This document shows, in pieces, positions 13,252 through 13,638 of a stretch of 20,343 nucleotides of DNA. The position numbers and the translations under genes were made by a program. Each line of letters begins with the position of its first letter. Position 1 is the stretch's first letter. The DNA is from a virus: IMG/VR virus record IMGVR_UViG_3300044730_002021, positions 1 to 20,343 of that record. One strand, 5' to 3'. Under the pieces are notes generated by a model. It was not told the origin of the DNA. It worked only from the letters and a program-made list of their open reading frames with translations, and made no database searches.

Positions 13252-13269
13252 ATATATTAAGTTTGCTGC

Positions 13270-13509
13270 AATTGCAGCAGACTGCAGCACTCATTGCAGC
13301 AGTCTCAAACCCATGCGCCTCATGGGTTTGTATGCTATTGCAGCAGATGCAGCAAAGGGGATAGATACATATGACTATAAAAAAAAATCTTTTTTATTAT
13401 TATTATATATATATATATGTTTTTTGCTGCAGTTGCTGCAATAGCATTGAAATCGTTGGTGGGCCTTGATTTGAAGGTGCTGCAGTTGATGCTGCAGTCT
13501 GCTGCAATT
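13270..13509. repeat. About 240 bp imperfect palindrome with three nested arm pairs
   Basis: Outer arms 13270-13289 and 13490-13509 are perfect 20 bp inverted copies. Inner arms 13333-13356 and 13423-13446 match at 22 of 24 positions. A 7 bp pair lies between them (13295-13301 and 13478-13484). All share the centre 13389.5. The rest of the arms has diverged while spacing stayed exact. Confidence 0.9.
13306..13330. repeat. Perfect 10 bp hairpin in the left arm of the palindrome
   Basis: CAAACCCATG (13306-13315) and CATGGGTTTG (13321-13330) are perfect inverted copies around CGCCT. No T-run follows, so it is not a standard terminator, although it sits 54 bp after the primase stop. The mirror position in the right arm (13449-13473) keeps only the outer ends of such a hairpin, GAAATC and GATTTG. 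Confidence 0.7.
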
Positions 13510-13638
13510 CCCGGGAACGCCATGATCAGAGCCACGTTAAGGGTGCTGCAATCATCAAAATAAATTCGCTGCAATAAAATTGTCTGGACAAAATCCTTGA
13601 TGATGAAGATAGTCGTCGGAAAAGAAGGAGGATCAAAT

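Follow-up and report, generated by a model that had tools for sequence, protein, structure and literature searches.

What is the function of an array of short repeats, laid out in mirror order around an AT-rich core, that directly follows a phage primase-helicase gene? We examined this question in a 20,343-bp IMG/VR virus fragment (here, the window), which encodes a YqaJ recombinase, a Sak4-like protein, a helicase, a resolvase-like protein, and a TOPRIM primase-helicase, followed by terminase-like and portal genes. The portal gene has a clear Pfam match (E = 1.7e-15) and the terminase-like gene, 5 kb from the array, a weak one; together they indicate a tailed phage, so the window is a phage fragment and not a satellite needing a helper phage. 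A small HTH_3/HTH_31 protein, a candidate regulator, is encoded just past the array (positions 13912 to 14124). Elsewhere, the minus strand (6104 to 6805) encodes a 233-amino-acid protein with weak similarity to Peptidase_M7 metallopeptidases.

We propose, with a probability of roughly 0.8, that the array is a bidirectional tailed-phage origin at which the upstream TOPRIM primase-helicase would recognize the heptamers and two of its hexamers would self-load head to head.

The heptamer array and its primase-helicase

The features of the locus are as follows (strand in parentheses where one applies; offsets in base pairs from the innermost copy of the arm).

10813-13251 (+): TOPRIM primase-helicase, proposed initiator; 812 amino acids, Toprim_3 E = 2.9e-12
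12859-13248 (+): C-terminal 130 amino acids, candidate iteron-binding domain; the last ~30 to 45 are a candidate specificity tail
13264-13301: left outer iteron cluster, at 13264 (TGCTGCA), 13273, 13283, and 13295 (TGCAGCA); offsets 84, 75, 65, and 53
13302-13338: left long spacer, with a perfect 10-bp inverted repeat (13306-13315/13321-13330)
13339-13354 (-): left inner iteron pair, at 13339 and 13348; offsets 9 and 0
13361-13371 (+): core-edge element ATAGATACATA; related arrays also have ATAGATA and ATACATA at their core edges
13376-13418: AT tract, proposed unwinding element; 43 bp with a single G/C base (a C)
13425-13440 (+): right inner iteron pair, at 13425 and 13434; offsets 0 and 9
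13441-13477: right long spacer; 23 of its 37 bases mirror the left spacer
13478-13506 (+): right outer iteron cluster, at 13478, 13490, and 13500; offsets 53, 65, and 75
13544-13550 (+): unpaired right iteron, offset 119
13567-13573 (+): degenerate copy CGCTGCA

The window holds 17 exact copies of TGCTGCA/TGCAGCA, compared with a mean of 3.08 and a maximum of 7 in shuffled sequences, and 12 of the 17 fall within 13264 to 13550, which bears out the original prediction of twelve copies in about 300 bp. The predicted symmetry was also recovered: five pairs (13273/13500, 13283/13490, 13295/13478, 13339/13434, and 13348/13425) sum exactly to 26779, about a center at 13389.5, and when each copy was jittered by up to 5 bp, five exact pairs were reached in 0 of 2,000 trials. 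Ten of the 12 copies are thus paired, leaving those at 13264 and 13544 unpaired; the right arm has no site at offset 84. The 43-bp central tract with one G/C base was likewise found as described. Opposite orientation of the copies on the two sides, a further part of the prediction, holds for most of them but not for all: among the left copies, the one at 13264 runs opposite to the remaining five, and since TGCNGCA is nearly palindromic, orientation is decided by the middle base alone. A tandem-iteron origin has direct repeats on one side of its unwinding element; here, iterons lie on both sides in mirror order.

The first iteron begins 12 bp after the end of the primase-helicase gene. The protein matches phrog_35358 and phrog_2249 (DNA primase), and its AlphaFold2 model has a pLDDT of 87.9. 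Foldseek placed SCCmec Cch first (5dgk; E = 2.3e-8), followed by PriRep1 on double-stranded DNA, SaPI5, and SaPIbov1 Rep; the matches include 7pds, 7ola, and 8tch, with moderate TM-scores (0.36 to 0.48 by target). The model therefore predicts a Rep-like self-loading helicase fold, while its TOPRIM part matches T7 gp4/DnaG. The C-terminal 130 amino acids were modeled at a pLDDT of 90.6; searched against the PDB as an isolated domain, they had no fold match, so a winged helix is unconfirmed. In a search of genome contigs with the primase-helicase, the matches listed cover almost only the TOPRIM half.

Arrays, spacing, and iteron words in related phages

The original prediction called for the same symmetric arrangement to be sought after primase genes of related phages, and it is present there with different heptamers. 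The nearest phage record with a full-length primase-helicase homologue is Bdellovibrio phage phi1422 (34% identity), whose 338-bp gap after the primase gene carries TGTTACC/GGTAACA in five exact mirror pairs and one near pair. IMG/VR relatives have other words in the same place, among them GTCAACA, TGGGCCA, GTTATCC, TGTAAAC, TGTTAACG, and TGTAATG. At least two exact mirror pairs occurred in 37 of 177 3′ regions, compared with 2 of 1,247 control windows, 0 of 885 shuffles, and 0 of 169 5′ regions; at least three occurred in 6 of the 177 3′ regions and in 0 of the 1,247 control windows. The surveyed loci are related to one another, so these counts are descriptive rather than independent, and the fraction of 3′ regions that passed is only 21% because the survey demands exact heptamers and an exact mirror. 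The repeats are not lost in close relatives: arrays are kept in L003, L018, L020 to L022, L024, L025, L028, L029, and phi1422.

In some of the more distant relatives, the stretch immediately 3′ of the primase-helicase gene carries no array. Similar arrays lie 1.7 kb downstream of the primase gene in Serratia phage MQ-4 (L009 9105-9340), farther downstream in Pseudomonas phage ZRG1 (L012 11242-11615), and upstream in Acinetobacter phage Acjo_20 (L015 3076-3480), positions that argue against a simple structure at the 3′ end of the transcript. GC skew, suggested earlier as a way to find the origin, did not help: in the complete phi1422 genome, it tracks gene direction and locates no origin. The phi1422 array is directly followed by a small protein, gp24 (L005 8855-9043), that has a ribbon-helix-helix look by eye.

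Across 55 arrays, exact copies peak at 0, 8 to 9, 51 to 53, 63 to 65, 73 to 76, and 82 to 84 bp from the innermost copy of the arm. The window has offsets of 0, 9, 53, 65, 75, and 84 on the left and 0, 9, 53, 65, 75, and 119 on the right; L025, which uses TGTTAACG, has 0, 9, 52, 64, 75, and 85 and 0, 9, 53, 65, 76, and 119, its right arm sharing the site at 119. Positions are thus kept while the word changes, and the conserved feature of the arrays is their spacing (~0, 9, 52, 64, 75, and 84), not their sequence.

This grid bears on the possibility that one arm is simply a recent inverted copy of the other and the symmetry has no function. Complementarity between the long spacers exceeds chance (0.62 in the window and ~0.39 to 0.48 in phi1422, L021, L025, and the PICI, against ~0.25), which suggests common ancestry of the arms or a shared spacer element and would allow duplication as the source of the symmetry. 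Against this, the grid is common to arrays whose heptamers differ and whose helicases are distantly related, and in phi1422 the spacing is matched even though the left spacer has a terminator-like hairpin and the right does not. Duplication alone does not account for a spacing that persists when the word changes, and we consider it unlikely.

The words themselves point to the helicase. In L039 and L040, the iterons are identical at 77 of 77 positions while 21 of 235 other bases have changed, and 29 of the last 30 residues of the proteins are alike. L039 and L041, by comparison, encode proteins ~96% identical apart from the last 30 residues, where 20 of 30 agree, and every iteron differs; 73 of 232 aligned bases of the remaining origin have diverged, and the downstream sequence is 97% identical. 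Similarly, L198 and L218 have helicase cores 96% identical, tails 72% identical, and unrelated iteron words. The bulk correlation between tail identity and shared iterons is weak, being clear only in paired cases (L039/L041 and L198/L218). In sequence comparison, these two natural pairs point to a link between iteron identity and the C-terminal tail of the helicase. What was seen in the phage group itself comprises the array, its persistence as heptamers change, the spacing grid, the helicase fold, and this co-variation.

The same observations weigh on a reading of the heptamers as operators, bound by a repressor or other regulator of the downstream early genes. Phages do carry operator arrays, and the HTH_3/HTH_31 protein encoded just downstream would be a suitable regulator. 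It is the helicase, however, that is the conserved neighbor in relatives and whose tail shifts along with the iterons, and ~12 fixed-grid sites around an AT-rich core match PICI and P4 origins; an operator array is therefore very unlikely.

Spacers, core edges, and strand folding

The inverted repeat in the left spacer is centered ~21 bp from the left inner pair. Some relatives have imperfect palindromes at about this offset: 5 of 43 spacers reach at least 8 of 9 pairs, compared with 1.9% in shuffles. The core edges of relatives share ATAGAGA, ATAGATA, or ATACATA well above shuffled expectation: among 40 distinct cores, ATAGATA occurs in 15 and ATACATA in 14 (expected, 1.8 and 0.9). Judged from sequence, these words may form another conserved element, for recognition or melting. 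Beside them, a GAGAGA tract is often seen on the left and TCTCTC on the right. Candidate IHF sites in the long spacers (7 exact or one-mismatch sites, with 2.2 expected) were confined to a few relatives and rejected as a general feature.

The array strand folds strongly (DNA z, ~ -11), as do those of relatives. Together with the spacer complementarity of 0.62 (expected, 0.25), this is what a hairpin or cruciform acting as a structural signal, a terminator, or a single-strand origin would produce, with the heptamers as mere parts of the stem. Yet any inverted iteron set folds, and hairpin energy does not separate a cruciform from opposed iterons in the window or its relatives. Long-spacer complementarity is just ~0.39 to 0.48 in phi1422, L021, L025, and the PICI, and the heptamers are also direct repeats within each arm, some of them flipped, for which a hairpin has no need. 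A terminator scan of 13100 to 13700 found no site, and an Rfam search of the array gave only subthreshold hairpin look-alikes. We judge the structural reading even less likely than an operator array.

Short repeated sites near phage early genes can also have partition or packaging roles, but a segregation site is the least probable of these alternatives: no partition gene was recognized among the scanned neighbors, the terminase-like gene is distant, and the best match in position and layout is a PICI origin tested on a plasmid (PMC6092414). Operator, cruciform, plain inverted duplication, and segregation site are each less likely than a bidirectional origin.

Proposed mechanism and comparison with known origins

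In the bidirectional origin that we favor, the C-terminal domain of the helicase would bind the heptamer iterons, as that of SaPI Rep recognizes iterons downstream of its own gene (PMC7581432). Each arm, composed of an inner pair, a ~43-bp spacer, and an outer cluster, would offer about six grid sites and nucleate one hexamer, a number of sites that would suit one hexamer per arm. Since the arms face each other, the two hexamers would be brought together head to head; they would open the AT-rich core and launch replication in both directions, from primers made by the TOPRIM domain. Iteron binding, double-hexamer loading, melting, and bidirectionality are modeled here on SaPI, PICI, and SV40 systems. 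The array is conserved beside its gene although its heptamer changes, the helicase has a predicted SaPI Rep/Cch fold, and a PICI origin tested on a plasmid shares the mirror plan; this comparison supports well the original prediction of a symmetrically loaded origin of the TOPRIM-helicase.

The prediction that the origin is of an undescribed kind is not supported, because SaPI and PICI origins with opposed iteron sets have been described (PMC6092414, PMC9894130). The kind is known, a SaPI/PICI-type iteron origin beside its own initiator helicase, of which the array is a phage variant. In the open-access literature searched (a set without PMC3804134 and PMC9371898), we found no description of tailed phages that combine a TOPRIM-fused initiator with base-exact inward arms, the grid of the arms being fixed and their words exchangeable.

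Our comparison with SaPI-type origins draws on the literature and on the sequence of EcCICFT073, an E. coli PICI whose pri-rep-ori segment maintains a plasmid (PMC6092414). SaPI and PICI origins lie directly 3′ of rep, with two iteron sets around an AT-rich region (PMC6092414), and the opposed repeats of SaPI origins are proposed to load two head-to-head hexamers (PMC9894130). The window shares the position immediately 3′ of the primase-helicase gene (13251 to 13264), the two iteron sets around a melting region, and a related helicase fold; it differs in being a phage with its own portal and terminase-like genes and in having a TOPRIM primase fused to the helicase. The EcCICFT073 origin contains GGTAGA copies in five exact mirror pairs, with arms at 0, 9, 55 (flipped), 77, 88, and 97. 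These arms, whose inner-type pairs point outward, whereas those of the window face inward to one AT core, are matched as well by 5.9% of random arms on average in their fit to phage arms, a suggestive result only.

The EcCICFT073 offsets closely match those of P4 ori, which has six type-I sites at 0, 10, 53 (flipped), 75, 86, and 96. On average, P4 ori fits phage arms better than 99.7% of random arms do; with L241, the best arm, all five offsets agree. The window agrees with the P4 arm at 0, 9, 53, 75, and 84; a flipped third site is absent, and TGCNGCA is nearly palindromic. Like the proposed phage initiator, P4 alpha protein is a primase-helicase that uses short iterons, and P4 ori resembles one arm of the array; unlike the window, P4 has a single-arm ori, with crr ~5 kb away and no mirror plan. 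In P4 (L001 4291-4590 and 9310-9413), each crr repeat resembles another arm type (inner pair, ~43 bp, reversed cluster), and crr and ori look as if they were separated arms.

SCCmec Cch, a DUF927 helicase, is the best fold match of the window helicase, and Cch and Cch2 have a downstream origin. The Cch2 C-terminal domain binds its downstream iterons (PMC7581432), although the putative Cch2 origin has three iterons only and the protein no TOPRIM domain. At the SV40 origin, T antigen is loaded from opposed sites as two head-to-head hexamers (PMC9894130). Here the likeness is one of mechanism only; the DNA-binding domain of the initiator and its sites are different.

From these comparisons, we consider it an even chance that P4 satellites, PICIs, and many tailed phages share one origin code, in which a fixed-grid arm of six sites serves each self-loading hexameric helicase, the arms being single (P4), back to back (PICI), or face to face (phages), and the word is swapped freely with the C-terminal tail while the grid stays fixed. 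If so, a swap of word and tail would give new replicon specificity under a constant grid. The array plan offers a practical route to origins in phage metagenomes and to predicting replicon compatibility, and the natural series of origins with the same spacing and different words provides a handle on loader-free ring-helicase loading in SaPI/P4-like initiators.
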